Shown here piece after piece: positions 10,469-34,581 of a DNA stretch of 64,000 bases; the first letter of the stretch is position 1; each line of letters begins with the position of its first letter. The position numbers and the translations under genes are program-made. Origin of the DNA: Methylopila capsulata. Lineage in GTDB: Bacteria > Pseudomonadota > Alphaproteobacteria > Rhizobiales > Methylopilaceae. Location: assembly GCF_016907975.1 (NCBI RefSeq), contig NZ_JAFBCY010000002.1, positions 868,001 to 932,000 of the forward strand, written 5' to 3'. The notes under the pieces are model-generated. The model saw nothing but the letters and a program-made list of their open reading frames with translations. It searched no databases and was not told the DNA's origin.

Positions 10469-11620
10469 CTAAAGCTCTTTCCCGTAGAGCCGCCAGGTCT
10501 TGGTGTGCGTGGCGGGGAGGCTGGCGACGAGATTGATGACCGAACGGTTCTCCTCGAGCATCCAGCTCACCTCCATGCGCTCGACCTTGGCCGCCTGCGC
10601 CTTCTCCACGGCGTCGGCGAGCAGCGAGGCGGCGGCCATCGCGCCGACGCGGGTGCCGCGCCAGGCCCGGCGGACGCCGATGACGGGCACGCGCACGCGC
10701 TTGGTGCCGGCCACCTTCAGCCGCCACAGCATGCGCGCCCAGCCGAAGGGGAACAGCTTGCCGCCGAGCCCGTGGATCGCCTCGTTCACGTCCGGCGCCA
10801 TGGCGAGCACGCCGATCGGCTCGTCCTTCCAGGTCACGATCGTCGTCCAGTCGCGCGGCAGCAGCGGCTGCGCCAGCTCGGCGAGGAAGCTCGCTTCGGC
10901 GTCCGAGACCGGCACGGCGCCCCAGTTGCCGGACCAACCGTCGTTGTAAATGGCGTTGAGGGTCGCCACCGCCTCGCGGCCGACGGCGCTGCGGATGACG
11001 AGGTCCTTGGAGCCGGCCCAGCGCGCGCGGGCGCGCTTGACCCGGCCCGGCAGCGGACTGCCTGCGACTGGACCTTCGTAGCCGATGAGATCCTTGATCC
11101 CGACGAACCCAAGCCGCTCCAGCTGCCGCGCGTAGTAGCGCGGGGCGTAGTTGGTGTGGGTGGTCGAGGGCGTGTCGTGGCCCTCCACCAGCAGGCCGCA
11201 CTCATGGTTGATCGAGGCGCTGAACGGTCCGGTCATCCGCGTCAGGCCGCGTTCGCGCAGGAAGGCGGCGGCGGTCGCGAACAGCGCGTCCCAGACCGCG
11301 TCGTCGTCGATCGCCTCGAGGAAGCCGAAGTGGCCGGCGCCGTCCTTGTGGATCGCCAGATGGGCGTGGTCCTTGACCGCGTAGATCCGTCCGACGGGTT
11401 GTCCGTCGCGAAAGGCGGTCCAGGCGCGGCCGTCGTTGTCGCGGGCGAACGGCGTGTTGCCCGGCGTGATGGTGAGGTTGAGCTCGTGCAGCAGCGGCGG
11501 CGAGAACGCCGGGTCGCCGCCCTGCGCCGCCAGTCCCGCCCGCCAGAACGGCGTGACGTCGCGACGCGACTCGACCGGGCGGACCGCGATCGGGGAGCGA
11601 TGGGTCGGGGATGGGGTCAA
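10469..11620 (-). CDS. GNAT-fold N-acyltransferase, bacterial ceramide synthase (BcerS/YghO) family
   Basis: A 383-residue acyl-CoA N-acyltransferase-like protein. The arrangement matches the BcerS/YghO family as I recall it: an N-terminal RPVESRRDVTPFWR, then DPAFSPPLLHELNLTITPGNTPF, PVGRIYAVKDHAH, FGFLEAIDDDAVWDALF, LRERGLTRMTGPFSASINHECGLLVEG and YYARQLERLGFVGIKDLIGYE. In Caulobacter the family member acylates the amino group of a sphingoid base to give ceramide. Such proteins are often misnamed dATP pyrophosphohydrolase. Translation appears to start at a TTG only 5 bases after the alpha-oxoamine synthase stop, with no later ATG that keeps the N-terminal block, so it is coupled to that gene. 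The role in N-acylating the product of the two upstream enzymes is inference from family and operon. Confidence 0.78.
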   Translation of the reverse strand: MTPSPTHRSPIAVRPVESRRDVTPFWRAGLAAQGGDPAFSPPLLHELNLTITPGNTPFARDNDGRAWTAFRDGQPVGRIYAVKDHAHLAIHKDGAGHFGFLEAIDDDAVWDALFATAAAFLRERGLTRMTGPFSASINHECGLLVEGHDTPSTTHTNYAPRYYARQLERLGFVGIKDLIGYEGPVAGSPLPGRVKRARARWAGSKDLVIRSAVGREAVATLNAIYNDGWSGNWGAVPVSDAEASFLAELAQPLLPRDWTTIVTWKDEPIGVLAMAPDVNEAIHGLGGKLFPFGWARMLWRLKVAGTKRVRVPVIGVRRAWRGTRVGAMAAASLLADAVEKAQAAKVERMEVSWMLEENRSVINLVASLPATHTKTWRLYGKEL

Positions 11621-11625
11621 GGGCG

Positions 11626-13020
11626 TCAGGCCGGCCGCGTCGCCTTGGCGAGCGCCGCCGCCATCTTGATGCCGAAGCCGGCCTCGGCGAGCTTGGCGTG
11701 CTCGTCGGCGGTCACGGCGACGGCCTCGTCGATGTGGGCGGGCTCATGCTCGCTGGTGAAGAAGAAGCGCAGCCGGGCCGAACGCTCGGGCACGGCGGGG
11801 TGGATGATCGGCAGCGCGTTCACGCCGCGCTCCAGCAGCCGGTTCGCGAGATGCACGGCGCGCAGGCTGTCGCCCACCATGACCGGCGAGATCGCGAAGC
11901 CGGCGCTGGCGCCGACGTCGAGGCCCGCGGCCTTGGCCTTCTCCACGAAGCGCTGGCCGATCGCGCGCAGCTTCGTCACCCGCTCCGGCTCGCGCTCCAG
12001 CACGTCGAGCGAGGCAATGGCGGCGCCCGCGACCGGCGGCGGCATACCGACGGAGTAGACGAAGCCGGGCGCGGAGAACTTCAGATAGTCGCAGAGCGCG
12101 GCGGAGCCGGCGATGTAGCCGCCGCAGCCCGAGAGCGTCTTGGACAGCGTGCCCATCCAGATGTCGATCTCGTTGGGGTCGACGCCGGCCTCTTCCGCGA
12201 TGCCGCGGCCGGTCTTGCCCAGCACGCCGAGCGAATGGGCCTCGTCCACCATCAGCCAGAAGCCGAACCGCTCCCGCAGCGCGACGAGGCGCTTCAGGTC
12301 CGGAAAATCGCCGTCCATGCTGTAGAGGCCCTCGACGACGACGAGCACCCGCGCGTGGCCATGGGCGTGCGCGATCAGCATTTCCTCGAGCGCGTCGAGA
12401 TCGTTGTGAGGAAACAGCCGCCGGGTCGCGCCGGACAGGGTCGCGCCCACCACGATCGAGTTGTGGGCAAGGCTGTCGTAGAGCACCAGGTCGCCCTGGC
12501 GCATGAGGTGGCCGATCGCCGAGACGTTGGTGGCGTGGCCGCTGACGAAGCACACCGCGGCCTCGACGCCGATGAAGCGCGCGATGCGGCCTTCGAGCTC
12601 CTGGTGGATCGGGCGTTCGCCCGCCACCAGCCGGCTCGCCGACACCGACGTGCCGTAGCGGTCGATCGCGGCCTTGGCGGCGGCGCTGACCTCGGGGTGG
12701 CCGTTCAGGCCGAGGTAGTTGTAGGAGGCGAAGTTCAGGATGGTGCGGCCGTCGATGTGGGTGGTCGCGCCCGCGCGGTCGTCGTGCACGCGGAAGAACG
12801 GCGTGCCGACGCCGATCAGCTCCGCGACCGCCTGCTGGGTGCGGATGTCCTTCAGCTCCGGCAGGTCCTGGAACCGGAGCTGGGCCTTCCGCGCCCGTTT
12901 CGCCCGCGGCGCCGGAGCCTCCGCGGAGCCGTCCTTCTTCGGGGCGGACTGCCTCAGCGCGCTGAGCAGTCCGTCCTTCGCCGAGCGCGACAGCGCGCCC
13001 ACGCCACGCCGCTCGCTCAT
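11626..13020 (-). CDS. PLP-dependent alpha-oxoamine synthase (RkpG / serine palmitoyltransferase-like)
   Basis: A 464-residue fold-type I enzyme that should join an acyl thioester to an amino acid with loss of CO2, giving an alpha-aminoketone. After a basic, low-complexity leader (1-50), it has LNFASYNYLGLNGHP, H186 of LAHNSIV for cofactor stacking, the VDEAHSLG block with D259 and H262, and the Schiff-base lysine K294 in TLSKTLSGCGGY. Relatives are KBL, BioF, HemA, serine palmitoyltransferase and rhizobial RkpG. The ATGA overlap with the polyketide synthase gene means it is translated together with it, so its acyl donor is probably the chain carried on that synthase's ACP. That partnership argues against a BioF or HemA role. 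The amino-acid substrate cannot be read from the sequence. Confidence 0.9.
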   Translation of the reverse strand: MSERRGVGALSRSAKDGLLSALRQSAPKKDGSAEAPAPRAKRARKAQLRFQDLPELKDIRTQQAVAELIGVGTPFFRVHDDRAGATTHIDGRTILNFASYNYLGLNGHPEVSAAAKAAIDRYGTSVSASRLVAGERPIHQELEGRIARFIGVEAAVCFVSGHATNVSAIGHLMRQGDLVLYDSLAHNSIVVGATLSGATRRLFPHNDLDALEEMLIAHAHGHARVLVVVEGLYSMDGDFPDLKRLVALRERFGFWLMVDEAHSLGVLGKTGRGIAEEAGVDPNEIDIWMGTLSKTLSGCGGYIAGSAALCDYLKFSAPGFVYSVGMPPPVAGAAIASLDVLEREPERVTKLRAIGQRFVEKAKAAGLDVGASAGFAISPVMVGDSLRAVHLANRLLERGVNALPIIHPAVPERSARLRFFFTSEHEPAHIDEAVAVTADEHAKLAEAGFGIKMAAALAKATRPA

Positions 13021-16000
13021 CCGGTCACCCGGCCGATCGCCGACCGGCGCTCCTCCACCGCCGCGCCGAAGGCCGCGAGGTCCTCGATCGCGACGTCGTC
13101 GGAGATGTGGCGGTTCACGAGGTCCGCGTTCACCGCCGCGCTTTCGGCGCCGCCGTCCGGCTCGTGGATGCGCGAGACGATCGACTGGGCGATCGTCGTC
13201 AGGGTCGTGGAGTCGCCGATCGCGACGAGCGGCAGTTCGATGTCGAAGCGTCGCTCGACGCTCATGCGCAGCTCAAGGCCCATCAGCGAGTCCATTCCCA
13301 GCTCGGCCAGCGGGCGCTGGGCCGAGATTTCCTTCGCCGGCAGCTTCAGGATGCGGGCCACCTCGCCGGCGAGGATCTCCGACACCACGTCGCGCGCCTC
13401 GCGGGCGTCCTTGCCGCGCACAAGCGCCGCGAGGTCGATCTGCTCCACCGTGTCCTGCGGCCCGAGCTCGGCGCCAGCCAGCACTTCGGCGAAGGTCGGC
13501 GCCGCAAGGAAGGCGAGGTCGCGCCGCGCCGCCGCCCAGTCGATCGGGGCGATGGCGACGACCGCCGTCTCCGGCCGCGGGTCGTTGCGCGCCAGCACGG
13601 TCCCGAGCCCTTCCAGCGCCTCCGCGCCGGAGAGCGTGGCGTGGCCGAGCCGCCGCTGGATCTTCTCCTTCACCTCGCCGGTGCGGGCGAGATAGCCGAC
13701 GTCGCCGAGCGCGCCCCAGGCGATTGCGAGCCCCGGCTTGCCCGCCGCGCGGCGCCGGCGCACGAGCGCCTCCAGCCAGGCGTTGGCCGCGACGTAGTTG
13801 GCCTGGCCCGGGTTGCCGATGACGGTGGTTGCGGAGGAGTAGACCACGAACTGGCCGAGCGGATCGCTCGCCGTCAGCCGGTCGAGCGCCGCGGCGCCGT
13901 CGATCTTTGGCCGCAGCACGGCTTCGAAGCGCGTGGCGTCGAGGTTCGCGAGCAGCGAATCCTCCAGCACCATGGCGACGTGCCAGGCGCCGCCGATGGG
14001 CCCGAGCGTCGCGCGGGTGTCGTCGAGCGCCTTCGCGAGGGCCGTCTCGTCGGCCGCGTCGCAGGCGAACACCTTCACCTCCGCGCCCGCCGCCTTCAGC
14101 CGTGCGACGCCGGCCTTGGCGTGCTCGCCCTTCGCGCCGGACCGGCCGATGAGCGCGAGCTTGGTCGCGCCCTTGGCCACCAGCCACTCCGCGGTGGCGA
14201 GACCGAAGCCGCCGAGGCCGCCGACCAGCACATGCGCGCCTTCGGCCGCCTGGAACGACGCGGTCTCCGGGACGCTCAGCGCCTCGGGCGCCTGCGGCCG
14301 CACCACGATCTTTCCGATGTGCCCGGACTGCTGCATCAGCCGGAACGCGTCGCGCACCTCCGTCGCCCCGAAGGCGCGGTAGGGCAGCGGCGAGAACACG
14401 CCCTTCGCGAACAGCTTCAGCACGTCGCGGAACAGCTTCTGGCCGAGATCCTTGCGGTGGACCAGCAGCTGGTCGGCGTCGATGCCGAAGTAGGCGATAT
14501 TGCGCCGGAACGGACGCAGGCCGACGCGGCTGTTGGCGTAGTAGTCGCGCTTGCCGAGTTCGAGGAAGCGGCCGAAAGGCTTCAGCGTCTGGAGGCTGCG
14601 CTCCATCGCCTCGCCGAACAGCGAGTTCAGCACCACGTCGACGCCCTCGCCGCCGGTGAGGCGCCGGGCCTCGTCGACGAAGTCGAGGTTGCGGCTGGAC
14701 AGCACGTGGCGGGCGCCGAGCGCGCGCAGCAGGTCGCGCTTCTCGTCGGAGCCGGCGGTCGCGATGACCTTGGCCCCGCGCCAGAGCGCGATCTGGAGCG
14801 CGGCGAGACCGACGCCGCCGGCGCCGCCGTGGATCAGCACCCACTCGCCGCGCTTGATGCGGGCAAGTTCGACCAGCGCGTAATAGGCGGTGAGGAAGCA
14901 GACCGGGATGGTCGCGCCTTCCTCGAAGGCCAGCCCCTCGGGCAGCGGGGCGACCGCGATCTCGGGCACGGTGACGTGGCTCGCGAAGGCGCCGGAGGCG
15001 AAGGTGACCACGCGGTCGCCGGCCGCGAAGGCGGTGACGCCCGCGCCGACCGAGGTGACGACGCCCGAGCACTCGATGCCGAGGCCGGGGCCGGCGAAGC
15101 CGTCCTCCAGCGCCTCTTCGGGCAGCAGGCCGAGCGCCCACATCACGTCGCGGAAGTTCAGGCCGACCGCGGCGACGTCGATCGCGACTTCGCCGGCCTG
15201 GGGCGCCATGACGGGCGCGGGGCGCCACGCGACGTCGTCCAGGCCGCCTTCGCGGCCGGTGTCGAGCTGCGCGCGGACGGGCGTCGCGCTCGCAGCCCTG
15301 ACGGGCGCGGGCGGCAGGCCGTGGCGCAGCCGCGGCGCGCGCACGCCGCCCGCCGAGATCTCGATCTCGACGTCGGCGCGGGGAACGGCGATTTCAGCGG
15401 CGACGGCGCGGGAGGACGCGTCCGCCCCGAGCGCCGGATCAACGTCGATCAGCCGGATGTCCTGGCCCCGGAACTCGTTGCGCACGACGCGCAGGAAGCC
15501 GGCGAGCGCCGCCTGGTCGGTGCGGCCGCCGCTGTCCAGCGTCCAGCCGAGCGCCCCGGGCGCGACGATCCACAGCCGCGCTTCGGCTGCGGCCGCGGCG
15601 CGGACGAGGCCGAGCAGGCGGCCGGAGCGCGCGGTCGCGGTCGCGGAATCGTCCGGACCCGCCGCGTCGAACACGGCGACGAGGTCGGGCTTCGGCGCCG
15701 ACTTGGCCACCTTGCCGAGGCCGAGGTCGAGGACGTCGCCCCAGTCGGCGGCGGGCTCGTCCGCGATCCGCGCGACCTTGCGGCCCGCGCCCGCGAGCGC
15801 CTCCGACAGGCCCGCGGCCAAGGCGCCGTCGGCGGTCTCGGCGAACAGGACGACCGGGCCCGCGGCGACGGTCTCTTCCGCCTCCGCGGCGCGGGGCGCG
15901 CGGGTGGCGACGGCGAGCGTGGTGGGCGCGCGGGCGCCGGCGACGGGCGCGAAGGCGTGGTCGGTCAGCCGGGCGTCCGCGAAGTCCGCAGCCCAGTCCT

Positions 16001-19000
16001 CCGGCGCGCGGGCCGCGCCGACCGGGAAGGCGTCGGCGGCCGACCGGTCGAACCACGAGGGGTCGAGGCCGAGCGTGACGTCGAGGAAGGGCGCGGGTTC
16101 GACAGCCGCGAGCAGCAGGCGTCCGCCGTCGGCGAGCGCCGCAGCGACGCGGCGGACCGCGTCGTGGTCATGCAGCGCGGCTCCCCAGCCGACGGCGCCG
16201 ACGACGAGGTCGAAGCGCCCCGGAGCGTCCGCGTCAGAGCCGGGATCGAAGGCGGCCACCGTGACGCCGGGCGCCCCGGCGAAAGCGAAGCGCAGACGCT
16301 CCGCGGCGGTGGCGTCGGGGTCGGTCACGGCGAGGGTCACGCGCGGGTCGCCGCCGAGCGGCAGCAGGCGACGGGTGAGCGCGCCGGCGCCGGCGCCGAG
16401 CTCGAGGATGCGGAGCGGCCGGTCGGCCGGCCAGCCCGCGAGCGTGTCGGCCGCAAGCGCAGCCACAGCCTCGACGCCCGCCGCGACGAGCGGCGCGCCT
16501 CCGGCGAGATGGGCGAGGGTGGAGGCGCCGAAGGGCGCGCCGGCGCCCGGGCCCTGCTTCAGCGTCTTCGGCAGCAAGGAGAGCGCGCGGGTGGCGAGCG
16601 TCACCTCGGCGCTGCGGTCGGGATGGTCGGCCAGCACCGTGCGGGCGATGTCGACCGCCGAGGGCAGGCCGGTGGCGGCGGCGAGCGTCCAGGTCTCGCC
16701 GTCGAGCGTGGCGTGGCCGCGCTCCTCGAGGATCGCGAGCAGACGGTTGGCGAGGCGGACCGAGCCCGCGGCCAGACGCTTGCGGGCGACCAGCGCGGCG
16801 ACGGCGCCGCTGCGGGCGCGGCCGAAGATCGCGACCAGAGCCTCATGGGAAAGTGCGACAGCGAAAGCTTCCAGCAGCAGGTCGTCGTCCGCCCGGTCGT
16901 CCGCGTCGCCAGCGAGGCCGAGCGCCTTGGCGCGGGCGACGATGGCCGCGGCCTCGGGCGCCGGCGGCGTTTCGCCGTTGAGCGGCGCGCCGATCAGCGC
17001 CGGGGCCGGATGGTACGACAGCCGCTCGAGCGGCGTGCGCCGCGCGAGCGTGACCGCCCGGAAGCGGGCGTCGGTCAGGGTCGCGACGATCTCGCCGTCG
17101 ACGCCGAACACGGTGAAGGTCGCGTCGATCGAACGCGGGCTGAAGCGACGGATGCGGATCTCCGCGCCGCCGATCGCGGCGCCGGGCTTCATCAGCCGCA
17201 GCGCGCCGAAGCGCATCGGCAGGTAGGTCACGTCCGGCCGGTCGCCATGCTCGCCGAACAGCGTCAGCAGGCCATGGAAGCAGGCGTCGAAGTCGGCCGG
17301 GTGCAGGCCGTAGCGGTCGTCCCGCGCGCCGGCGCGGTCGGCCTCAGGCTTCAGCGTGACGCGGATCGCGTGCGGCGCGGGCCGGTCGACCCGCTCGACG
17401 GCGCGGAAGGCCGGGCCGAAGCCGAGACCGTGGATCTCGGAGCGGGCGTAGATCTCGGCCGAGGTGAAGCTCGGGCCGTCGCCGGAGACGGGCTCCGGCG
17501 TCGGGATCACCTTGGTCGGCGTCGGCGCGACGCGCCCGCTGGCGTGCAGGATCCAGTCGTCGGAGCGCAGGCGCGGGCGGCTGAGGATCTCGACGGTGCG
17601 GCTCTCCGGCGAAATGCGGGTGCGCACCTCCGTCAACGACTCGGAATCGAGCGTCAGCGCATGCGGGATCTCGAAGTCCGAGAGCTCGACCGTCGGCGTC
17701 TTCAGCCAGGCGCGGCCGGCGGCGAGCGCCATCTCGGCAAGCGCCGCGGCCGGCACCACCACGCGGCCGCCGACCTTATGGTCGGCGAGCAGCGGCGCGA
17801 CGAGCGGGTCGAGGTGGGTGGTCCACTGGTCGCTGTCGACCTTGAGCCGCGTGCCGATCAGCGGATGCTGGTCGTAGCCGTGGTAGATGCCCTGCCCTTC
17901 GCCGGTGACGGAAACCGCGAAGCGCGCGTTCTGCCAGGGGTAGGTCGGCAGCTTCGCGGCGGGGCCGCCGAGCCGTCCGAAGGCGAGGTCGCGGTCGACG
18001 CGGCCGCCCTTGGCGATCACGCGCGACAGCGTGCGGCGCACCGGGTCGTGGTCGCCGGGGCCATGGTCGTCGCACGACAGCGCGCCGCCCTGGACCTCTT
18101 CGGCCGCGAGCACGTCGGAAATGTAGGTCTGCAGCACCGGCCGGGGGCCGATCTCGACGAAAATCCGGGCGCCGAGCTCGGCGGCGGCCGTGACGGCGGC
18201 GGAAAACAGCACTGGCTGGCGGACGTTGTCCCACCAGTAGTCGGCGCCGAGGGCCGAACCCTCGACCAGCGCGCCGGTCACGCTCGACACGAAGGCGCGC
18301 CGCGTCGCGCGCGGCTTCAAGCCCTTGAGGTCGGCGAGCAGCGGGGCGCGCACGCCCTCGATCAGGCCGGTGTGGAAGGGATAGTCGATGTCGAGCACGC
18401 GCACTGCGATGCGCTTGCCCTTGGCGAAACGCTGCAGGTCGCGGATCTCGGCCTCGGGGCCGGAGACGGTGATCGAGCGGAAGCTGTTGACGGCGGCGAT
18501 CTCGACGCCCTCGAAGCCGCCCTCGTCGAGCAGCGCCTGCACCTCGTCGGCCGGCGACAGCACGGCCGCCATCGCGCCGGCCTTCCAGGCGATCTCCTGG
18601 TGCAGGCTGCGCGAATGCACGACCTCCGCCGCCTGCTCCAGCGTCAGCGCGCCGGACGCGTAGGCCGCGGCGACCTCGCCCACGGAATGACCGAGCACGA
18701 CGTCCGGCGTCACGCCGACGGCGCCCAGCGCCGCAGTGGTGGCGACCTGGACCGCGAACAGCAGCGGCTGGGCGAACTCGGCCCGGCGCAGCTTGTCCGC
18801 GAGATCCTCGGCGAACAGCGCCTCGCGCAGCGACCAGCCGGCGACCTTGCCGAACGCCGCGTCGACCTCGTCGAGGCTGGTGCGGAACGCGCGGTCCTGG
18901 GCGTGGAGCTTGCGCCCCATGCCGGCCCACTGCGAGCCGTTGCCCGAGAAGGCGAAGGCGACAGGCGCCTCGCGGCCGACCGCCTGGTCCGCCGCGGCGC

Positions 19001-20564
19001 CTGCGACCTCGCCGGTTTCGGCGAAGGCGGCGAGCGTCGCGGCCCAGCTCTGGGCGTCGTCGCTTTCGAGCACAAGGCGGCGGGGCAGCAGGTCGCGCGT
19101 CGCAGCCACGCTGGTGGCGATGCGCCGGGCTTCCGCCGCGTCCGCGCCGTCGAGCGACTTGGCGTAGGCGCCGGCGAGCGCCGACAGCGCCTCGCGCGAC
19201 CGCGCGGAGAGGGCCAGAACCGGCGCAGTCGCCGAGGTCTGGGCCGGCCGCGGCCCGGCGTGGCCGAGACGGTCCTCGGGCGTCGGGTCGTAGACCACCA
19301 CGTGCGCGTTGGTGCCGCCGAAGCCGAAGGAGTTCACCCCGGAGTACCGCGCCAGGGCGCCGCGCGGCAGCGGCGTCAGCTCGGTCGCGACCGTGAGGTT
19401 GAGCTCGTCGAACGGGATGTCGGGGTTCAGCTCCTCGAGGTGGAGCGAGGCCGGGAGCAGGTCATTCTCGAGCGCGAGATCGACCTTGAGCAGGCCGACG
19501 AGACCCGAGGCCGGCTCGAGATGGCCGACATTGGTCTTGACCGAGCCGATCGGCAGCGGACCGACGGTGCGGCCCTTGAAGGCGCGGCCCACGGCGCTCG
19601 CCTCGGCCGGGTCGCCGACGCGGGTGCCGGTGCCGTGCGCCTCGATGAAGGCGAGGCGATCGGGGTGGACGCCGGCGTCAGAGTAGAGCCGCTCCAGCAG
19701 CGCCACCTGCGCGTCGGACGACGGCAGCGACATGCCGACGGTGCGGCCGTCGGAGTTCACGCCGGAGGCCGCGATCATCAGGCGCATCGGGCGATGGGCG
19801 GCGCGGGCGACGTCGGCGCGCTCGATCACCACGGCGACGCCGCCTTCGGCCCGCACGTAGCCGTCCGCGCCGGCGTCGAAGGCGCGGCAGCGGCCGCGCG
19901 GCGACAGCATGGTCGCCTGGGCGAAGGAGATGAACGGGAACGGGCTGCCGAGAATGCTGACGCCGAGCACGACCGCGCGCTCGATCCGGCCGGAGCGCAG
20001 CGCGACGATCGCTTCGTTCAGCGCGACCAGCGACGACGAGCAGGCCGTGTCGATGGTGAAGCTCGGCCCGTGCAGGTCATAGACGTAGGAGATGCGGTTC
20101 GAGACGATCGACAGCGTGTTGCCGGTCGCGAAATAGGGGTCGGCCGAGGCGGTGTCGAAGATGACGCGGTTGCCGTAGTCCAGCGCGGAGGCGCCGACGA
20201 ACACGCCGGTCTCGCTGCCAGCGATGCTCGAGGGCGGAATCCCGGCGTCCTCGAGCGCCTCCCAGACCAGCTGCAGGCCGAGGCGCTGCTGCGGATCCAT
20301 CTGCTCGGCCTCGCGCGGCGAGATGCCGAAGGCGGCCGGATCGAAGCCGAACACGTCGTCCAGCACGCCGGCCGCGAAGGTGTAGCTCTTGCCCGGCTCG
20401 CCCTTGCGGGGGTGCAGGTAGCGCGCGTGGCTCCAGCGATCCTCGCCGATCTCCGTGACGGCGCAACGCCCCTCGGCCAGCAGGTTCCAGAACGAGGGGA
20501 CGTCGTTGGCGCCCGGAAGACGACACGACCGTCCGACGACGGCCAGCGACAAGGGAGCTTTCAT
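13017..20564 (-). CDS. Single-module highly reducing type I polyketide synthase (RkpA-like)
   Basis: A 2,515-residue iterative-looking synthase. Domains in order: ketosynthase 1-425 with DTACSSSL (C175), EAHGTGT (H310) and KTNVGHLE (H348); acyltransferase about 535-830 with GHSVGE (S627) and YPFHT; dehydratase about 890-1175 with H929 in the HxxxGxxxxP motif and D1093; a methyltransferase-like domain about 1380-1550 with ILELGAGAG; a structural KR half about 1565-1740; enoyl reductase about 1760-2090 with HGGAGGVGLAA; ketoreductase about 2105-2345 with GGLGGFG and Y2257/N2261; ACP with GMDSL (S2426); then a 45-residue tail. There is no thioesterase, so release probably uses the coupled alpha-oxoamine synthase. 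The same order occurs in fungal reducing synthases. Rhizobial RkpA, needed for capsular K antigen, is the closest bacterial relative I recognise. Confidence 0.93.
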   Translation of the reverse strand: MKAPLSLAVVGRSCRLPGANDVPSFWNLLAEGRCAVTEIGEDRWSHARYLHPRKGEPGKSYTFAAGVLDDVFGFDPAAFGISPREAEQMDPQQRLGLQLVWEALEDAGIPPSSIAGSETGVFVGASALDYGNRVIFDTASADPYFATGNTLSIVSNRISYVYDLHGPSFTIDTACSSSLVALNEAIVALRSGRIERAVVLGVSILGSPFPFISFAQATMLSPRGRCRAFDAGADGYVRAEGGVAVVIERADVARAAHRPMRLMIAASGVNSDGRTVGMSLPSSDAQVALLERLYSDAGVHPDRLAFIEAHGTGTRVGDPAEASAVGRAFKGRTVGPLPIGSVKTNVGHLEPASGLVGLLKVDLALENDLLPASLHLEELNPDIPFDELNLTVATELTPLPRGALARYSGVNSFGFGGTNAHVVVYDPTPEDRLGHAGPRPAQTSATAPVLALSARSREALSALAGAYAKSLDGADAAEARRIATSVAATRDLLPRRLVLESDDAQSWAATLAAFAETGEVAGAAADQAVGREAPVAFAFSGNGSQWAGMGRKLHAQDRAFRTSLDEVDAAFGKVAGWSLREALFAEDLADKLRRAEFAQPLLFAVQVATTAALGAVGVTPDVVLGHSVGEVAAAYASGALTLEQAAEVVHSRSLHQEIAWKAGAMAAVLSPADEVQALLDEGGFEGVEIAAVNSFRSITVSGPEAEIRDLQRFAKGKRIAVRVLDIDYPFHTGLIEGVRAPLLADLKGLKPRATRRAFVSSVTGALVEGSALGADYWWDNVRQPVLFSAAVTAAAELGARIFVEIGPRPVLQTYISDVLAAEEVQGGALSCDDHGPGDHDPVRRTLSRVIAKGGRVDRDLAFGRLGGPAAKLPTYPWQNARFAVSVTGEGQGIYHGYDQHPLIGTRLKVDSDQWTTHLDPLVAPLLADHKVGGRVVVPAAALAEMALAAGRAWLKTPTVELSDFEIPHALTLDSESLTEVRTRISPESRTVEILSRPRLRSDDWILHASGRVAPTPTKVIPTPEPVSGDGPSFTSAEIYARSEIHGLGFGPAFRAVERVDRPAPHAIRVTLKPEADRAGARDDRYGLHPADFDACFHGLLTLFGEHGDRPDVTYLPMRFGALRLMKPGAAIGGAEIRIRRFSPRSIDATFTVFGVDGEIVATLTDARFRAVTLARRTPLERLSYHPAPALIGAPLNGETPPAPEAAAIVARAKALGLAGDADDRADDDLLLEAFAVALSHEALVAIFGRARSGAVAALVARKRLAAGSVRLANRLLAILEERGHATLDGETWTLAAATGLPSAVDIARTVLADHPDRSAEVTLATRALSLLPKTLKQGPGAGAPFGASTLAHLAGGAPLVAAGVEAVAALAADTLAGWPADRPLRILELGAGAGALTRRLLPLGGDPRVTLAVTDPDATAAERLRFAFAGAPGVTVAAFDPGSDADAPGRFDLVVGAVGWGAALHDHDAVRRVAAALADGGRLLLAAVEPAPFLDVTLGLDPSWFDRSAADAFPVGAARAPEDWAADFADARLTDHAFAPVAGARAPTTLAVATRAPRAAEAEETVAAGPVVLFAETADGALAAGLSEALAGAGRKVARIADEPAADWGDVLDLGLGKVAKSAPKPDLVAVFDAAGPDDSATATARSGRLLGLVRAAAAAEARLWIVAPGALGWTLDSGGRTDQAALAGFLRVVRNEFRGQDIRLIDVDPALGADASSRAVAAEIAVPRADVEIEISAGGVRAPRLRHGLPPAPVRAASATPVRAQLDTGREGGLDDVAWRPAPVMAPQAGEVAIDVAAVGLNFRDVMWALGLLPEEALEDGFAGPGLGIECSGVVTSVGAGVTAFAAGDRVVTFASGAFASHVTVPEIAVAPLPEGLAFEEGATIPVCFLTAYYALVELARIKRGEWVLIHGGAGGVGLAALQIALWRGAKVIATAGSDEKRDLLRALGARHVLSSRNLDFVDEARRLTGGEGVDVVLNSLFGEAMERSLQTLKPFGRFLELGKRDYYANSRVGLRPFRRNIAYFGIDADQLLVHRKDLGQKLFRDVLKLFAKGVFSPLPYRAFGATEVRDAFRLMQQSGHIGKIVVRPQAPEALSVPETASFQAAEGAHVLVGGLGGFGLATAEWLVAKGATKLALIGRSGAKGEHAKAGVARLKAAGAEVKVFACDAADETALAKALDDTRATLGPIGGAWHVAMVLEDSLLANLDATRFEAVLRPKIDGAAALDRLTASDPLGQFVVYSSATTVIGNPGQANYVAANAWLEALVRRRRAAGKPGLAIAWGALGDVGYLARTGEVKEKIQRRLGHATLSGAEALEGLGTVLARNDPRPETAVVAIAPIDWAAARRDLAFLAAPTFAEVLAGAELGPQDTVEQIDLAALVRGKDAREARDVVSEILAGEVARILKLPAKEISAQRPLAELGMDSLMGLELRMSVERRFDIELPLVAIGDSTTLTTIAQSIVSRIHEPDGGAESAAVNADLVNRHISDDVAIEDLAAFGAAVEERRSAIGRVTG

Positions 20565-25911: not shown

Positions 25912-26061
25912 AGAGCGTGATCGGCTTCAATGGATCACGCACCATTCCCCGGATAAACTGGGGCATGACACGCGCGTTGATTAAGGCAAGGTCCGAGTTT
26001 CCGGCCTACGCCGCATGCGAAGTTCCGCCGACGCCCGCGGCGGTCCCAGATGAGGCCTCCG

Positions 26062-26562
26062 ATGTTCGAGACGATGGTGATCGTGGTCCTGCCGGCGCTG
26101 ATCGCCGTCGCGGCGGTCTCCGACCTCATGACGCTGACCATTCCGAACCGGCTGGTGCTCGCGCTGGTCGCGGCCTTCGCCGTCGCGGCGCCGCTCGGCC
26201 ACCTCGGCCTGCAGGAAGTCGGTCTGCATCTCGTCGCGGGCGCGCTGACGCTCGCGATCGGGATGGCGCTCTTTATCCCCGGCTGGATCGGCGGCGGCGA
26301 CGCCAAGCTCGCCGCCGCCGTGGCGCTGTGGCTGGGCTTCGATCCCCTGCTGTCCTGGTTCGTGTCGTTCGCCCTGTTTGGCGGCGCGCTGACCGCGGCC
26401 GTGATGTTGTATCGCCGCGCGCCGATGCCGCTGCCGTTCGAGCGCGTCGGCTTTCTCAGCCGCCTGCACTCGCCGCGCGAAGGCGTGCCCTACGGGATCG
26501 CGCTGGCCGCGGGCGCGCTCGTGCTTCTGCCAAGCACGGCATGGTTCGCCTCGATCGGCTGA
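26062..26562 (+). CDS. cpaA: Prepilin peptidase CpaA (TadV)
   Basis: Inner-membrane aspartyl peptidase that cleaves the Flp pre-pilin leader. The 166-residue protein consists mainly of hydrophobic helices and retains both catalytic aspartates: one in SDLMTLTIPN and one in GGGDAKL. Start chosen at ATG 26062 because GAGG at 26052-26055 precedes it by 6 bases and homologues begin MFE; the ATG at 26050 would add four residues. It lies between flp and cpaB as expected in a cpa locus. Confidence 0.93.
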   Translation: MFETMVIVVLPALIAVAAVSDLMTLTIPNRLVLALVAAFAVAAPLGHLGLQEVGLHLVAGALTLAIGMALFIPGWIGGGDAKLAAAVALWLGFDPLLSWFVSFALFGGALTAAVMLYRRAPMPLPFERVGFLSRLHSPREGVPYGIALAAGALVLLPSTAWFASIG

Positions 26563-26586
26563 CAAGGTCATCCGGATGATGAGCGG

Positions 26587-26627
26587 CTGTTAACCTGATC
26601 CATGGGCTTAAAGACGCTCTGTTAACC
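26587..26627 (+). promoter_or_regulatory. Paired CTGTTAACC repeats upstream of cpaB
   Basis: The 9-mer CTGTTAACC occurs at 26587-26595 and again at 26619-26627, spaced 32 bases apart (about three helical turns), in the intergenic gap before cpaB. The core TTAACC matches the CtrA half-site and recurs in the flp promoter. This may be the control point of the cpaB-tadC operon. Regulator identity is inference. Confidence 0.45.
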
Positions 26628-26713
26628 ACGAATTGACGATTGGCTGGTTGAATCCTCGGGAACGACGCTCGCCCCGCGATTAGCGGCGCCGAGCCGCTCA
26701 TGGGGATCGCCTG

Positions 26714-27505
26714 ATGAAAGCCGCTCGCCTCGTGGTGCTTGGCATCGCGCTCGTCGCCGGGCTCGGGGCCGCGATGCTCGCCGGGGGCGGCGGGGACGCG
26801 CCGCCGGCGCCGGTCGCGGACGCCACGCCGCTGAACACGGTCGACGTCCTGGTCGCCGCGGCCGACATCCCGCTCGGCTCGGTCGTGAAGACGGAGGACG
26901 TGCGCTGGCAGGCCTGGCCGCAGGAGGCGGCCAACGCGCAGTTCCTGCAGAAACCGACGACCCCGCAGGCGATCGAAACCACGACGGGCTCGATCGCGCG
27001 CTCGCCCTTCGTCGCCGGCGAGCCGATCCGCGCCGACAAGCTGATCAAGGGCAACGGCTCCGGCTACATGGCCGCGATCCTGCCGGCGGGCATGCGCGCG
27101 ATCTCCATCGAGATCTCGCCCGAGACCGGCGCCGGCGGCTTCATCCTTCCGAACGACCGCGTCGACGTGATCCTCACCCGTCGCCAGCAGGGCGCGAACG
27201 GCCGGGACGAGACCTACTCCGAGACGATCGGCGCCAATGTCCGCGTCCTGGCGATCGACCAGGCGGTCGAGGACAAGGACGGCCAGCGCGTGGTCGTCGG
27301 CAAGACCGCGACGCTCGAGCTCAGCCCGGTCCAGACCGAACAGCTCGCGCTCAGCCGTCAGCTCGGCACGCTTTCGCTCGCCCTGCGCTCCCTCGCCGAC
27401 TCCGGCCCGAGCCCGAGCGACGGCGCCGCCTCCGATCTCAACAAGCGCGGCGGCGGCCTGACCATCGTCCGCTTCGGCGTGGCGAGCCAGGGGGGCGCCC
27501 GGTGA
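26714..27505 (+). CDS. cpaB: Flp pilus assembly protein CpaB
   Basis: A 263-residue periplasmic protein anchored by an N-terminal hydrophobic segment (about 4-27), with an SAF-type domain. Landmarks are VDVLVAAADIPLGSVVKTEDVRWQ, SPFVAGEPIRADKL, and PAGMRAISIEISPETGAGGFILPNDRVDVIL. CpaB is thought to act with the CpaC secretin in the outer part of the pilus machine. The stop overlaps the GTG start of cpaC. Confidence 0.94.
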   Translation: MKAARLVVLGIALVAGLGAAMLAGGGGDAPPAPVADATPLNTVDVLVAAADIPLGSVVKTEDVRWQAWPQEAANAQFLQKPTTPQAIETTTGSIARSPFVAGEPIRADKLIKGNGSGYMAAILPAGMRAISIEISPETGAGGFILPNDRVDVILTRRQQGANGRDETYSETIGANVRVLAIDQAVEDKDGQRVVVGKTATLELSPVQTEQLALSRQLGTLSLALRSLADSGPSPSDGAASDLNKRGGGLTIVRFGVASQGGAR

Positions 27506-29034
27506 TCGACCGTCGCGCACCGCAGAGTCCTCCGCCTTCGAGCCTTCCGCCACGCTTAGGCGACGCCACCCCTTCCAGCGCCAGGATCCGACGCGCCATG
27601 ACCGCCAGCCTGAGCGTCCTCCTCTCGACCACGGTTCGGCTTCGCCGAGGTCTTCGCGCTACGCTCATCGCGACCGCGGCCGTCTCCCTCGCCACGGGTC
27701 CCGCAGCCCTCGCCGCCGATCCCGGCTACTACGCCGAGGCCCAGCCGGGCGGTCAGGGCGACCGCGTCGATCTCGGCATCGGCAAGTCCTTCGTAGTCAC
27801 CCTGCCGCGCGACGCCAAGGAGGTGTTCGTGGCCGACCCGTCGGTCGCGAACGCTGTCGTCCGTTCGGCCCGCAAGGCCTATCTGATCGGGGCCGGCCCC
27901 GGGCAGACCGACGTGATGTTCCTCGACGCGGAAGGCCGCGAGATCGCGGCGTACGAGGTCTCGGTGTCGCGTGACGTCGGGTCCATCCGCTCCTCGATCG
28001 GCCGCTCGCTCGGCGGCGCCGGGAACATCCGGGTCGAAGGCGTCGGCGACGGCGTCGTGGTGACGGGTTCGGTGAAGTCCGCGCAGGAGGCGCAGACCGC
28101 CGTCGACATCGCCGCCGGCTACATGTCCGACCCGAAGAAGGTCGTGAACGCGCTCAAGATCGAGGGCCAGGATCAGGTTCTGCTCAAGGTCAAGATCGTC
28201 GAGATGCAGCGCGACGTCGTTAAGCAGCTGGGCGTCAATTACGACCTTAACGGCCTCAGCATCGGCAGCGCCGTGCTGAGCGGCGCGACCAACTTCGGCT
28301 TCCCCGCGACCAATGACGCTCCGAACAACAGCGGGACCATCACGAACGGCAAAGGGACGGCCGCTGCGACCATCAGCGCGCTGGAACGAAATGGCGTCTC
28401 GAAGACGCTCGCCGAGCCGACCCTGACCGCGATTTCCGGTGAGAGCGCTAAGTTCCTTGTGGGCGGCGAGTTTCCGATCGTCACCGGTTATGACCGGGAA
28501 GACAACCGCGCCAGCATCGAATTCAAGCAGTTCGGCGTCGGCCTCAACTTCACGCCGATCGTGCTTTCGGGTGGTCGTATCAGCCTCAGGATCGCGACCG
28601 AGGTCAGCGAGATCGACTCTTCAGCTTCCGTGCAACTTGGCGGCGGGTTCGTTGTTCCTGGCCTGAAGGTGCGGCGCGCCGACTCGACCGTCGAAATGCC
28701 GTCCGGGGGCTCGCTTGTCCTCGCCGGCCTCATTCGGCAGCAGAACAGCAGGGCGGCCGAGGGGCTTCCGGGTCTGATGAAGCTCCCGGTTCTCGGCGCA
28801 TTGTTCCGCTCGAACGACTTCAAGCGCAACGAGACGGAACTCGCGATCATCGTCACGCCCTACCTGGCGAAATCGACCGCGCCCACGAAGCTGGCCTCGC
28901 CCGACGACGGGTTCGCCGAACCGACCGACGAGTCCAACCTCCTCCTCGGCCGGCTGAACCGCCTCTACGGGATTCCCGGCAGGATCGACCCCTCCACTGT
29001 GAGCCACCGCCGCAGCGGCTTCATCATCGATTGA
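27502..29034 (+). CDS. cpaC: Type II/III secretin family protein CpaC (RcpA)
   Basis: The outer-membrane channel for the Flp pilus, 510 residues. It has an N-terminal pilus-assembly domain (VDLGIGKSFVVTLPRDAKEVFVADPSV), a BON-type middle (GNIRVEGVGDGVVVTGSVKSAQEAQ) and the secretin core with SGESAKFLVGGEFPIV and LAGLIRQQNSRAAEGLPGL. Translation may start at GTG 27502, which overlaps the cpaB stop, or at ATG 27598 directly before the signal-peptide-like stretch ending ALAADPG; the longer form would have an unusual 32-residue proline-rich leader. Confidence 0.94.
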   Translation: MIDRRAPQSPPPSSLPPRLGDATPSSARIRRAMTASLSVLLSTTVRLRRGLRATLIATAAVSLATGPAALAADPGYYAEAQPGGQGDRVDLGIGKSFVVTLPRDAKEVFVADPSVANAVVRSARKAYLIGAGPGQTDVMFLDAEGREIAAYEVSVSRDVGSIRSSIGRSLGGAGNIRVEGVGDGVVVTGSVKSAQEAQTAVDIAAGYMSDPKKVVNALKIEGQDQVLLKVKIVEMQRDVVKQLGVNYDLNGLSIGSAVLSGATNFGFPATNDAPNNSGTITNGKGTAAATISALERNGVSKTLAEPTLTAISGESAKFLVGGEFPIVTGYDREDNRASIEFKQFGVGLNFTPIVLSGGRISLRIATEVSEIDSSASVQLGGGFVVPGLKVRRADSTVEMPSGGSLVLAGLIRQQNSRAAEGLPGLMKLPVLGALFRSNDFKRNETELAIIVTPYLAKSTAPTKLASPDDGFAEPTDESNLLLGRLNRLYGIPGRIDPSTVSHRRSGFIID

Positions 29035-29062
29035 GCGTGAGTCGCGCAACGGAGCGCAGCAG

Positions 29063-29800
29063 ATGACCTTTTCCCACGCTTCCTTCGTCCGCGCCGTGAG
29101 GCTCGCCTGCCTCGGCGCCGCCGCCGCAGCGCTCGCCGGCTGCCATGCCGACCGGATCGTCGGCGACGACTACCCGCAGACCTACCAGCAGCGGCATCCC
29201 ATCGTGCTCGCGGAGGGCGAGGCCAAGCTCGACCTGCCGGTGGGCGCCACGCGGGAGGGCCTGACGCAGCGCCAGAAGGAAGACATTCGCGCCTTCGCCG
29301 CGGACTGGCGCAGGAACGGACGCGGCCCGATCGCCATCCTCTCGCCGCGCGGCGGAGCGAGCGACGCGGCCGCGGCCTACGCCCTGCCCGCCGTGCGCAC
29401 CACGCTCGCAGCGGCGGGCGTGCCGGCGACGGCCGTGCTCAGCCAGCGCTACACCGCCGAGGCGCCGGATCACTTCGCGCCGCTCCGGCTCGGCTACGTC
29501 AAGCTGAAGGCGGAGGTTCCGCATCCCTGCGGTCTCTGGCCCGACGACCTCGGCCACGGCGGCGGCGATTTCCGCGGCGCGACGCAGAATCGCGACTACT
29601 GGAACTTCGGCTGCGCCACGCAGCAGAACCTCGCCGCGCAGGTCGCCGATCCGGAAGACCTCGCGCGGCCGCGGGCCGAGACCCCGGTCTATGCGGCGCG
29701 CCGCCAGACCGTGATCCAGAAGCATCGCGCCGGCGAGGACACGACGACGACGTACAAGCAGGAAGATACGGACATCAGCGGCATCGGGAGCGCGAAGTGA
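29063..29800 (+). CDS. cpaD: Pilus assembly lipoprotein CpaD
   Basis: A 245-residue CpaD family protein, required for Flp pilus biogenesis and probably a partner of the secretin at the outer membrane. The signal ends in a lipobox (AALAGCHAD), so it should be lipidated at the Cys near residue 30. Typical features are DDYPQTYQQRHPIVLAEG, SPRGGASDAAAAYA, and GCATQQNLAAQVADPEDLARPR, the last being characteristic of the family. Its stop codon shares one base with the cpaE start. Confidence 0.92.
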   Translation: MTFSHASFVRAVRLACLGAAAAALAGCHADRIVGDDYPQTYQQRHPIVLAEGEAKLDLPVGATREGLTQRQKEDIRAFAADWRRNGRGPIAILSPRGGASDAAAAYALPAVRTTLAAAGVPATAVLSQRYTAEAPDHFAPLRLGYVKLKAEVPHPCGLWPDDLGHGGGDFRGATQNRDYWNFGCATQQNLAAQVADPEDLARPRAETPVYAARRQTVIQKHRAGEDTTTTYKQEDTDISGIGSAK

Positions 29801-31077
29801 TGACCAAGCTCGCCTCGCACCCGGGCTCTCATCTCGACGAACCCGCCGCCCCGCCCGTCGACATCATCGCGCCGCTTCCGCGCGTCTCGATCCAGGCGTT
29901 CTGCGAGACGCCCGAGATCGCGCGTCTCGTCGAGCACGCCGCGACCGACCGGCGGATGGAGAAGGCGCACGTCAAGGTGCAGATGGGCGGCGGCCTCGCC
30001 GCGGCCGAAGCCTACAAGAACGCGCCCACGCCCAACGTCGTCGTCATCGAGGGCGACGCCCATCGCGAACGTCTGCTCGACATCCTCCACCGCCTGTCCG
30101 ACGTGTGCGATCCCGGCACCAAGGTGGTCGTCATCGGGCAGGTGAACGATGTGCTGCTCTACCGCGAGCTCATGCGGCAGGGCGTCAGCGACTATCTCGT
30201 GCCGCCCTTCGACGTGGTCGACCTGGTGCGCTCGCTGTCGGAAATCTTCCGCGCGCCGGGCGCCGACCCCGTGGGCCGCACCGTCGCCTTCGTCGGCGCC
30301 AAGGGCGGCGTGGGCTCCTCGACCATCGCGCACAACGTGTCCTGGGCGATCGCGCGCCAGATCAAGCTCGACAGCGTCGTGGTCGATCTCGACCTCGCCT
30401 TCGGCACCGCGGGGCTGAACTTCAACCAGGACCCGCCGCAGGGCGTCGCCGAGGTGGTGTTCGCCCCCGACCGGCTCGACGCGGCGCTGGTCGACCGCCT
30501 GCTGTCGAAGTGCACGGAGCAGCTCTCGCTGCTTGCGGCGCCGGCGACGCTCGACCGGGTCTACGACTTCCATGAGGACGTGTTCGACCCGCTGCTGGAC
30601 ATTCTCAGGGCGAACGTGCCCTGCGCGGTGCTCGACGTGCCGCACATCTGGACCGCCTGGTCGAAGCGCGCTCTGATCGCCGCCGACGAGGTCGCGATCG
30701 TGGCGACGCCGGATCTCGCGAACCTTCGCAACGCGAAGAACCTGATCGATCTGCTGAAGGCCGCGCGTCCGAACGACGGTCCGCCGCGGCTGATCCTCAA
30801 TCAGGTCGGGGTTCCGAAACGCGCGGAGATCAAGCCGCAGGATTTCGCGAAGGCGCTCGACCTCGAGCCGGCGGCGATCGTGCCGTTCGATCCGCAGCTG
30901 TTCGGGACGGCGGCCAACAACGGCCAGATGCTGGCCGAGACCGCAGCCGGCCACAAGACCAACGAGATGTTCGTCGAACTCGCGAAGCGCCTGACGGGCA
31001 GGACGGAGGCCCGCAAGGTCAACCGCTCGCTGCTGGAGCCGCTGATGGCCCGGATCAATCGGAAGAAAGCCGGCTGA
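29800..31077 (+). CDS. cpaE: Pilus assembly ATPase-like protein CpaE (TadZ)
   Basis: A 425-residue protein with an N-terminal receiver-like domain (VQMGGGLAAAEAYKNAPTPNVVVIEG) and a C-terminal MinD/ParA-type domain. The P-loop reads GAKGGVGSST, keeping the deviant first Lys but with Ser in place of the usual second Lys, as in many TadZ proteins. TadZ localises the pilus machine to the cell pole. I chose ATG 29800, which overlaps the cpaD stop, rather than the GTG one codon earlier, because GGGAG lies at a good distance upstream. Confidence 0.94.
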   Translation: MTKLASHPGSHLDEPAAPPVDIIAPLPRVSIQAFCETPEIARLVEHAATDRRMEKAHVKVQMGGGLAAAEAYKNAPTPNVVVIEGDAHRERLLDILHRLSDVCDPGTKVVVIGQVNDVLLYRELMRQGVSDYLVPPFDVVDLVRSLSEIFRAPGADPVGRTVAFVGAKGGVGSSTIAHNVSWAIARQIKLDSVVVDLDLAFGTAGLNFNQDPPQGVAEVVFAPDRLDAALVDRLLSKCTEQLSLLAAPATLDRVYDFHEDVFDPLLDILRANVPCAVLDVPHIWTAWSKRALIAADEVAIVATPDLANLRNAKNLIDLLKAARPNDGPPRLILNQVGVPKRAEIKPQDFAKALDLEPAAIVPFDPQLFGTAANNGQMLAETAAGHKTNEMFVELAKRLTGRTEARKVNRSLLEPLMARINRKKAG

Positions 31078-31109
31078 GCCGGGGGGATCGGACGGGGAGA
31101 AGCGCCACG

Positions 31110-32585
31110 ATGTTCGGAAAACGCGGAACGCCGGCCACGCCGGCCACGACGGCCGGTTTCGCGCGCCGCTCCACGGCCGCGAGCGAGTTCGGCGCGCCGC
31201 TGATCACCGTGGCGCCGATCGGCGCCCCTGCGGCGTCGCCGCAGTCCGACCCTCGCCCGGTCGCGCCGCCGCCGATCGACACCCGCCGCAACGACGAGTA
31301 TTTCCAGACCAAGAGCCGGATCTTCGGCGCCCTGATCGAGGCGATCGACCTCGCGCAGCTCGCCCGCCTCGACACCGAGAGCGCGCGCGAGGAAATCCGC
31401 GACATCGTCAACGAGATCATCGCGATCCGGAACGTCGTGATGTCGATCGCCGAGCAGGAGGAGCTGCTCGACGACATCTGCAACGACGTGCTCGGCTACG
31501 GCCCGCTCGAGCCGCTGCTCGCGCGGGATGACATTTCCGACATCATGGTCAACGGCGCCGAGCGGACCTACATCGAGGTCGCCGGCAAGGTGCAGCAGAC
31601 CCCGATCCGCTTCCGGGACAACGCGCAGCTCCTCAACATCTGCCAGCGCATCGTCAGCCAGGTCGGCCGCCGCGTCGACGAGAGCTCGCCGATCTGCGAC
31701 GCGCGCCTTCCCGACGGCTCGCGCGTCAACGTCATCGTCGCGCCGCTGGCGCTCGACGGCCCGACGCTGACTATCCGCAAGTTCAAGAAGGACAAGCTGA
31801 CGCTCGACCAGCTGGTCCGGTTCGGCTCGATCAGCCCGGAGGGCGCCGAGATCCTCAAGATCATCGGCCGCGTCCGCTGCAACGTCCTGATCTCCGGCGG
31901 CACGGGCTCGGGCAAGACGACGCTGCTCAACTGCCTCACGCGCTACATCGACGAGGACGAGCGCATCATCACCTGCGAGGACGCGGCCGAACTGCAGCTG
32001 CAGCAGCCGCACGTCGTGCGCCTCGAGACGCGTCCGCCGAACCTCGAAGGCGAGGGCACGGTGACCATGCGCGACCTGGTCAAGAACTGCCTGCGCATGC
32101 GCCCCGAGCGGATCATCGTCGGCGAGGTCCGCGGACCGGAGGCCTTCGACCTGCTCCAGGCGATGAACACCGGCCACGACGGCTCGATGGGCACGCTGCA
32201 CGCGAACTCGCCGCGCGAGGCCCTGTCCCGTCTGGAGTCGATGATCACGATGGGCGGCTTCACCCTGCCGTCGAAGACCATCAAGGAGATGGTCTGCACC
32301 TCGGTCGACGTCATCGTGCAGGCGTCGCGCCTGCGCGACGGCTCCCGCCGCATCACCCACATCACCGAGGTGATGGGGATGGAGGGCGACGTCGTCATCA
32401 CCCAGGACATCTTCCTCTACGACATCCTCGGGGAGGACGCGAACAAGCGCCTGATCGGACGCCACCGCTCGACGGGCATCGGCCGCCCCCGCTTCTGGGA
32501 GCGGGCCCGCTACTTCGGCGAGGAGAACCGGCTCGCGGCCGCGCTCGACGCCGCGGAGAGCAACAACGAAAGCCGCGTCGCGTGA
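31110..32585 (+). CDS. cpaF: Flp pilus secretion ATPase CpaF (TadA)
   Basis: A 491-residue hexameric ATPase that powers pilus extension and retraction. It has a Pro/Ala-rich N-terminus, then the N1 domain with [21 protein letters not shown], the Walker A motif [12 protein letters not shown] at about residues 263-270, the Asp box EDAAELQL, the Walker [31 protein letters not shown] region, and a conserved C-terminal domain. It acts on the cytoplasmic face with TadB and TadC, whose genes follow. Confidence 0.96.
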
Positions 32586-32607
32586 CCCCGGCGAGCGGAG
32601 ACCGCGC

Positions 32608-33591: not shown

Positions 33592-33606
33592 AGACGGGAA
33601 CGTCGC

Positions 33607-34581
33607 GTGATCGACCAGATCTTTCGCACCATCAACGATCCGCACGCCATGGCGATGCTGCTCGCCGCGATCGCGGCCGTCGCGACCGTCGTGACCTTCG
33701 CCATGCCGCTGCTGGCGGGCGATCAGCTCGAGAAGCGCATGAAGTCGGTCGCGATCGAGCGGTCGCGCATTCGCGCCCGCGAGCGCGAGCGGCTCGCGCG
33801 CAACGACCGGAGAGGCCTGAAGCGCGAGCCCAAGGCCTACATGCAGAACATCGTCAGCCAGTTCAATCTGGCCAAGCATCTCGGCACCGCCGACGCCAAG
33901 GAGCGCCTGCTGATGGCGGGCTACCGCGGGCCGGGAGCCATGACGGCGTTTCTGTTTTTCCGGCTCGTCGCGCCGCTCGCCTTCATGGCGGTTTCGCTCA
34001 GCTACCTCTTCCTGATCAACGATTTCGGCAAGCCGCCGCTCATGCGGTTCGCCGCCGTAGTGTTCGCCACCTACCTCGGCATCAAGGCTCCGGAGCTGTT
34101 CCTCCGGAACCAGACGCAGAAGAGGCAGCTCTCGATGAAGCGCGCGTTTCCCGACGCGCTCGATCTGATGCTGATCTGCGTCGAGGCCGGCATGTCGGTC
34201 GAGGCCGCCTTCCGCAAGGTCGCGGACGAGATCGGCTCCCAATCGATCCCCCTCGCCGAAGAGCTGACGCTCACCATGGCGGAGATGTCCTACCTGCAGG
34301 ACCGCCGCCTGGCCTATGAGAACTTCGGCATGCGCACCGGGCTGGAATCGGTGAAGTCGGTGGCGACCGCGCTGATCCAGGCCGACAAGTACGGTACGCC
34401 CGTGAGCCAGGCGCTGCGCGTGCTCGGGCAGGAAAGCCGCGACATGCGGATGGCGGACGCCGAGAAGAAGGCCGCCGCCCTGCCCCCGAAGCTGACGGTG
34501 CCAATGATCGTGTTCTTCCTGCCGGTGATCTTCATCGTGATCCTCGGCCCGGCCGTCATCCAGGTGATGGCCGTCAAATAG
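33607..34581 (+). CDS. tadC: Type II secretion F-family platform protein TadC
   Basis: A 324-residue membrane platform protein, partner of TadB. Translation starts at GTG 33607. It shows the N-terminal helix, [25 protein letters not shown], the GspF motif [26 protein letters not shown], the segment [34 protein letters not shown], and a final hydrophobic segment [21 protein letters not shown]. It closes the visible Tad locus; no tadD, tadE or tadG follows in this window. Confidence 0.94.

Follow-up and report, generated by a model that had tools for sequence, protein, structure and literature searches.

The stretch analysed here (the window) comprises 64,000 nucleotides of contig NZ_JAFBCY010000002.1 (forward-strand positions 868,001 to 932,000) from Methylopila capsulata, whose 4.1-Mb genome is assembled in 8 contigs with a completeness rated at 100%. 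It carries one minus-strand operon, reading from 20564 to 10469, for a 2515-amino-acid polyketide synthase (PKS), a 464-amino-acid alpha-oxoamine synthase (AOS, protein P0002) and a 383-amino-acid GNAT protein (P0003), which we argue probably act together in making a ceramide-like lipid. The PKS gene (13017..20564, minus strand) encodes a type I enzyme, predicted to be iterative, in which Pfam and motif matches define ketosynthase (KS, 19275..20564; motifs DTACSSS, EAHGTGT and NVGHLE), acyltransferase (AT, 18015..18974; GHSVGE and YPFH), dehydratase (DH, 17025..17894; HKVGGRVVVP), methyltransferase-like (MT, 15885..16544), enoylreductase (ER, 14280..15254), ketoreductase (KR, 13485..14264) and acyl carrier (ACP, 13155..13409; GMDSL) regions, all on the minus strand, with no thioesterase domain found in the Pfam scan. 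The AT is presumed to be malonyl-type. Activity of the MT region is putative, the motif LELGAGAG being present; in the 12 synthases of the genus that were aligned (a set without genome G008, whose PKS gene is in pieces) and in that of Aquibaculum, the S-adenosylmethionine (SAM) motif of this region is rich in glycine, but it is eroded in most other aligned synthases of the RkpA type.

The AOS gene (11626..13020, minus strand) shares 4 bp with the PKS gene and encodes a pyridoxal phosphate (PLP)-dependent enzyme of the RkpG/SgaB type, which has the catalytic residues of the alpha-oxoamine synthase family (H186, D259 and the PLP lysine K294) and whose related solved structures are AOS enzymes. 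The third gene (10469..11620, minus strand) starts with TTG 5 bp past the AOS stop and encodes a tandem-GNAT protein with a predicted N-acyltransferase activity. The overlapping or abutting layout, the domain order without a thioesterase and the three AOS residues had been proposed in an earlier reading of this DNA (the sequence-only reading) and all were confirmed, as was its placing of the third protein in the bacterial ceramide synthase (bCerS)/YghO (Aca) family, to which P0003 is related over its full length (34.5% identity to E. coli YghO over 377 amino acids). P0003 matched none of the NCBIfam models and a PDB sequence search with it gave no match at E 1; its likeness to Caulobacter CC_1154 comes through gene order and YghO, not through direct sequence comparison.

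The association of the three genes is conserved. Orthologues of P0003 and P0002 lay side by side, with a PKS in front of them, in 13 of 13 searched genomes of the genus (hereafter the genus genomes; close relatives are recorded as Methylopila, Hansschlegelia, Chenggangzhangella and, in one record, Chelatococcus sambhunathii), the KS and ER matches in G008 being in pieces, and the synteny survey that the sequence-only reading had called for was thus strongly positive. A wider genome scan gave 22 loci, 20 with a GNAT gene of the same, PKS-side, type (ten from the same genus genomes) and 2 with a type that accompanies serine palmitoyltransferase (SPT). A PKS-type AOS stood directly upstream in 18 of the 20 PKS-side loci and a PKS lay within the locus in 16; a PKS-side locus with no adjacent AOS (L066) begins at a contig end, and the start piece of the GNAT gene, an AOS and a PKS are found at another contig end of the same genome. 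The PKS-side type occurs also in Beijerinckiaceae and Rhodovibrionaceae, with altered gene orders: the PKS is inverted and more distant in Methylocella (L067), a Hyphomicrobiales metagenome-assembled genome (L070) and Methylocapsa (L071), and the order is AOS-GNAT-PKS in two Beijerinckiaceae loci (L072 and L073), the adjacency of AOS and GNAT being kept in these five. Aquibaculum arenosum, from another order, carries both GNAT types at separate places (L117 and L118).

Both types are also present in M. capsulata. A single paralogue of P0003 was found in the genome (C5:90310-91431, locus L011; 34.9% identity over 381 amino acids, E 4.5e-62 in the genome search), surrounded by genes for an ABC exporter, a fatty acyl-AMP ligase (NF006624, 809.4 against a cut-off of 600 bits), an ACP, an SPT which passes NF047599 (668.8 against a cut-off of 500) and LptF- and LptG-type permeases (PF03739), followed by an open reading frame read as a nucleotidyltransferase, a neighbour so annotated in Roseomonas plasmids. 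In Caulobacter the CC_1165-CC_1152 region is arranged as AasR, AcpR, Spt, LptF2, LptG2, CC_1154 and CC_1153, and CC_1154 is described as the N-acyltransferase required for ceramide (PMC11324152). The gene order of L011 matches this arrangement, so the genome has the canonical ceramide synthase gene, with P0003 as a second copy; this cluster rules out the trio as the sole sphingolipid locus of the genome. A second GNAT gene was found in 13 of 13 genus genomes, and in all 8 of these that were checked it sits in a canonical cluster (AasR-AcpR-SPT-LptF/G-ceramide synthase). CerR gave no match at 1e-5 in 6 of the 11 canonical loci tested, including L011. Immediately preceding the exporter and SPT genes of L011 (92-2597 of the locus, about G000:C5:76091-78596) is a UDP-GlcNAc 2-epimerase (PF02350), beside open reading frames whose translations look NeuB-like and CMP-sialic-acid-synthetase-like, which may point to a link between a nonulosonic acid and the export of sphingolipids there.

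The two GNAT types differ cleanly in the company they keep. GNAT sequences were reduced from 103 to 80 distinct rows by removing near-identical duplicates, and in a tree of these the 23 PKS-side rows form one branch with 100% support in the SH-aLRT test, leaving 57 others. A PKS-type AOS was no more than 200 bp away in 21 of the 23 PKS-side rows against 0 of the 57 others and a PKS in the locus in 19 of 23 against 0 of 57, while any of SPT, LptF/G, the nucleotidyltransferase or AasR was nearby in 0 of 23 against 51 of 57. Members of the bCerS/YghO family are usually, not universally, encoded near SPT, AcpR and AasR, and this was seen in 0 of the 23 PKS-side rows, which thus differ from the canonical genes in having no such partner adjoining. 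The two branches share 27 positions common to at least 97% of rows and show near-fixed differences at three (T156/M, Y225/F and I314/M). As the tree labels were assigned by best match to the two paralogues of M. capsulata, the tree alone is no independent proof of the split; the count of neighbours is. Thirteen of the 23 PKS-side rows come from one genus, so that the number of independent lineages is nearer three, and the loci vary in length, several of the 57 being about 4 kb, so that absent neighbours there mean little (6 of the 57 had no canonical gene). In one search 29 places besides the window were typed together with their loci, 1 as PKS-side (Aquibaculum) and 28 as SPT-side, the others being typed only where their loci were examined later. 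The PKS-side group that holds P0003 is a branch of the bCerS/YghO family, sister to the canonical one.

The arrangement of the genes, their domains and catalytic motifs, the family relationships, the conserved linkage and the partner split were observed directly; from them we infer the reactions and the product. The three genes probably work as one pathway making an N-acylated sphingoid (ceramide-like) lipid, which is likely to be a (keto)ceramide of PKS origin. A reduced acyl chain would be assembled by the PKS on its own ACP domain and, because the synthase has no thioesterase, the AOS would be needed for chain release, by decarboxylative condensation with an amino acid to a 3-keto-sphinganine-like base, which the GNAT protein would then N-acylate. 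The ketone may be reduced by an RkpH-like short-chain dehydrogenase/reductase (SDR) from another contig, before or after N-acylation, an order that is open for Caulobacter too (PMC11087976). Serine is the most likely amino acid, by analogy with PfSgaB of Pseudomonas fluorescens MYb115, for which SPT activity has been shown, with serine preferred over alanine and glycine (PMC12134224). PfSgaAB is, like the first two genes of the trio, a single-module PKS with an AOS; the pair produces sphinganines, with proposed phosphoglycerol forms, and an SDR is proposed to reduce the ketone (PMC12134224). A Pseudomonas plasmid AOS homologue is 54.8% identical to P0002.

The PKS-AOS half of the trio is therefore known chemistry; what is new is the ceramide-synthase paralogue dedicated to it. 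PMC12134224, from 2025, presents its sphingolipid-making PKS cluster as the first in bacteria to its authors' knowledge and mentions bacterial ceramide synthase when discussing canonical producers, and in the available part of that paper no bCerS-type N-acyltransferase is reported in the cluster. In canonical ceramide synthesis (Caulobacter CC_1165-CC_1152; E. coli BL21 yghO-spt) the first step is likewise of AOS type and the tandem-GNAT is of the same family, but the acyl chain comes from AasR/AcpR whereas in the trio it is predicted to come from the PKS. In the open-licence literature searched, no report was found that combines a bCerS-type gene with a PKS-AOS pair of bacteria. In fungal fumonisin synthesis the PKS chain of Fum1 is off-loaded by the AOS Fum8, as is predicted for the trio, and to our knowledge fumonisin or sphingofungin synthesis in fungi includes no dedicated ceramide-synthase paralogue of bacterial type; Fum13/SphF of these pathways are taken up in PMC12134224. 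The sequence-only reading had proposed that the N-acyltransferase gives such a pair a lipid product: the combination appears unreported, but a lipid product is not wholly new, since sphinganine production by PfSgaAB was already published. Its interpretation as a whole is upheld in part, in the domains, residues, kinships and synteny, having been made without a view of the canonical SPT/ceramide-synthase locus, and with ketone reduction possibly lying with an SDR on another contig. A co-inherited ceramide-synthase paralogue beside PKS-AOS predicts a ceramide-type product and would give the rkp-type pair a testable lipid output; one three-gene operon offers a simple genetic test in cultured Methylopila and Hansschlegelia strains, whose canonical locus is an internal control.

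The rkp-type PKS-AOS module is needed for capsular K antigen, and the kinship of the pair to rhizobial RkpA/RkpG, also put forward in the sequence-only reading, was verified: P0002 is 55% identical over 462 columns to the AOS of Sinorhizobium meliloti pSymB and the PKS 43% identical over an aligned piece of 1190 columns. The pSymB genes, labelled by domain in the record, are ones we take to be RkpA, RkpG, RkpH and RkpJ. As in the trio, a reducing single-module PKS and an RkpG-type AOS overlap there by 4 bp; unlike the trio, the AOS is followed by an SDR and a capsule gene, with no GNAT annotated nearby, and a search of the pSymB replicon with P0003 found nothing at 1e-20. Conversely, no RkpH-like SDR and capsule gene lie directly downstream of the trio in the window, a KpsS-SDR pair being found on contig C3 instead. 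In a survey of the class a PKS-type AOS was found at E 1e-110 in 13 of 385 alphaproteobacterial genomes. At the 12 AOS places of the 11 genomes other than M. capsulata and Aquibaculum, PKS domains were found in 12 of 12 and a GNAT in 0 of 12 (stretches of 12 to 20 kb), with RkpH-like SDR or KpsS/KpsC-like genes near in 9 of 12. That every PKS-AOS pair carries a GNAT gene was ruled out, most pairs seen being without it; such pairs in the survey, together with those of the same gene order, suggest that the GNAT gene is an addition in some lineages. The AOS rows were reduced from 77 to 64 distinct ones, plus two named ones, and in a quick tree (SH-aLRT only) the AOS of Aquibaculum groups with other AOS rows, suggesting that one GNAT type came to accompany, or stayed with, AOS genes of different lineages.

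Several observations weigh against a single pathway. Among the 13 genomes of the survey a GNAT adjoins the AOS only in M. capsulata itself and Aquibaculum; five PKS-AOS pairs of the same order (L032-L034, L036 and L037) are without a GNAT, and the AOS tree rules out that the GNAT-accompanied AOS genes form one clade. In Beijerinckia mobilis the GNAT gene (L069 10001-11134) is unlinked from the PKS-type AOS (L167), and no PKS was found in the 3.4 kb before that AOS, up to the contig end, possibly reflecting decay or a different use. P0002 also scores below the cut-off of each of the three NCBIfam SPT models (NF047599, 270.2 against 500; NF047600, 298.8 against 640; NF047603, 204 against 670), so that serine is a predicted substrate. 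The canonical pathway of the same genome could by itself supply ceramide. As to the reduction step, the RkpH-like SDR on contig C3 is only 31% identical to the S. meliloti SDR and matches generic SDR models only, so is not recognised as a keto-sphinganine reductase, and for CerR the genome offers only a poor match (28%, 49.5 bits).

The purpose of the pathway may lie in the capsule. On contig C3 of the M. capsulata genome (L080 10451-15796) LTA-synthase-like (PF00884), KpsC-like and KpsS-like (both PF05159) and SDR genes form a module. The SDR of this module is 49% identical to the SDR beside the PKS-AOS pair in L032 and 43% identical to that of a Pseudomonas plasmid cluster, where PKS, AOS, KpsC-like, LTA-synthase-like, SDR and KpsS-like genes lie in one run and encode proteins 29 to 55% identical to those of M. 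capsulata. This suggests that the enzymes of the C3 module may act on what the trio makes. That plasmid cluster also holds a short, different GNAT (PF00583; L165 16402-17004), which may be an independent solution to N-acylation. Among PKS-side loci an SDR lies beside the GNAT in L070 and in Aquibaculum (L118), in the latter with a KpsS gene too, these genes adjoining PKS-AOS-GNAT. It is possible, though we lean against it, that the product of the trio serves as lipid anchor for a Kdo-linked capsule, with KpsS/KpsC-like enzymes extending a PKS-derived ceramide in place of a lyso-phospholipid; this is compatible with a single ceramide-type pathway, whose purpose it would be. PKS-AOS pairs stand beside RkpH-like SDR and KpsS/KpsC-like genes in several lineages and a KpsS-SDR pair was found in each of the 13 genus genomes, but capsule-type genes do not adjoin the trio in the genus (the pair lies about 25 kb from it in G002 and 29 kb in G006, and at a great distance or on a different contig in the other genomes), the KpsS-like protein of M. 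capsulata is below the NCBIfam KpsS cut-off (229.6 against 600) and the literature search found no paper naming an rkp lipid. A fuller proposal, which we put forward tentatively and with some doubt, is that some bacteria have two parallel ceramide pathways which share neither acyl source nor ceramide synthase, an SPT route giving outer-membrane phosphosphingolipids and a PKS route giving a tailored, possibly C-methylated ceramide anchor that KpsS/KpsC-like and LTA-synthase-like enzymes would decorate; if true, the rkp-type PKS-AOS module would be a sphingoid-anchor factory.

It is rather improbable that PKS and AOS yield a free sphinganine-like base, as in Pseudomonas SgaAB, which the GNAT protein would only cap or detoxify with a short acyl group, for instance acetyl, giving a small secondary metabolite and not a membrane ceramide. 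In favour of this, acetyl-CoA enzymes are among the solved structures nearest to the model of P0003, and for the published SgaAB pair the products are sphinganines, with phosphoglycerol sphingolipids also proposed, and the available text reports no gene of ceramide-synthase type (PMC12134224). That the GNAT is a spare ceramide synthase copy which also serves the canonical SPT pathway and is merely carried with the PKS genes would fit the presence of both loci in one genome, but is very unlikely given its separate branch, the clean partner split of the two branches, the tight AOS-GNAT linkage that survives rearrangements and the presence of the PKS-side GNAT in several families.

From their translations, the genes flanking the trio are presumably unrelated to it: one flank holds purH and genes for two small proteins, the other those for an EamA-type permease and a formate-tetrahydrofolate ligase. 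Further into the window (26050-34581) lies what we take, from the translations, to be a Tad pilus gene run, with prepilin peptidase, CpaB/C/E/F and TadB/C. On plasmid p3 of Planktothrix agardhii (L166 5584-13182), PKS and AOS are apparently one fused gene, which adjoins glycosyltransferases.
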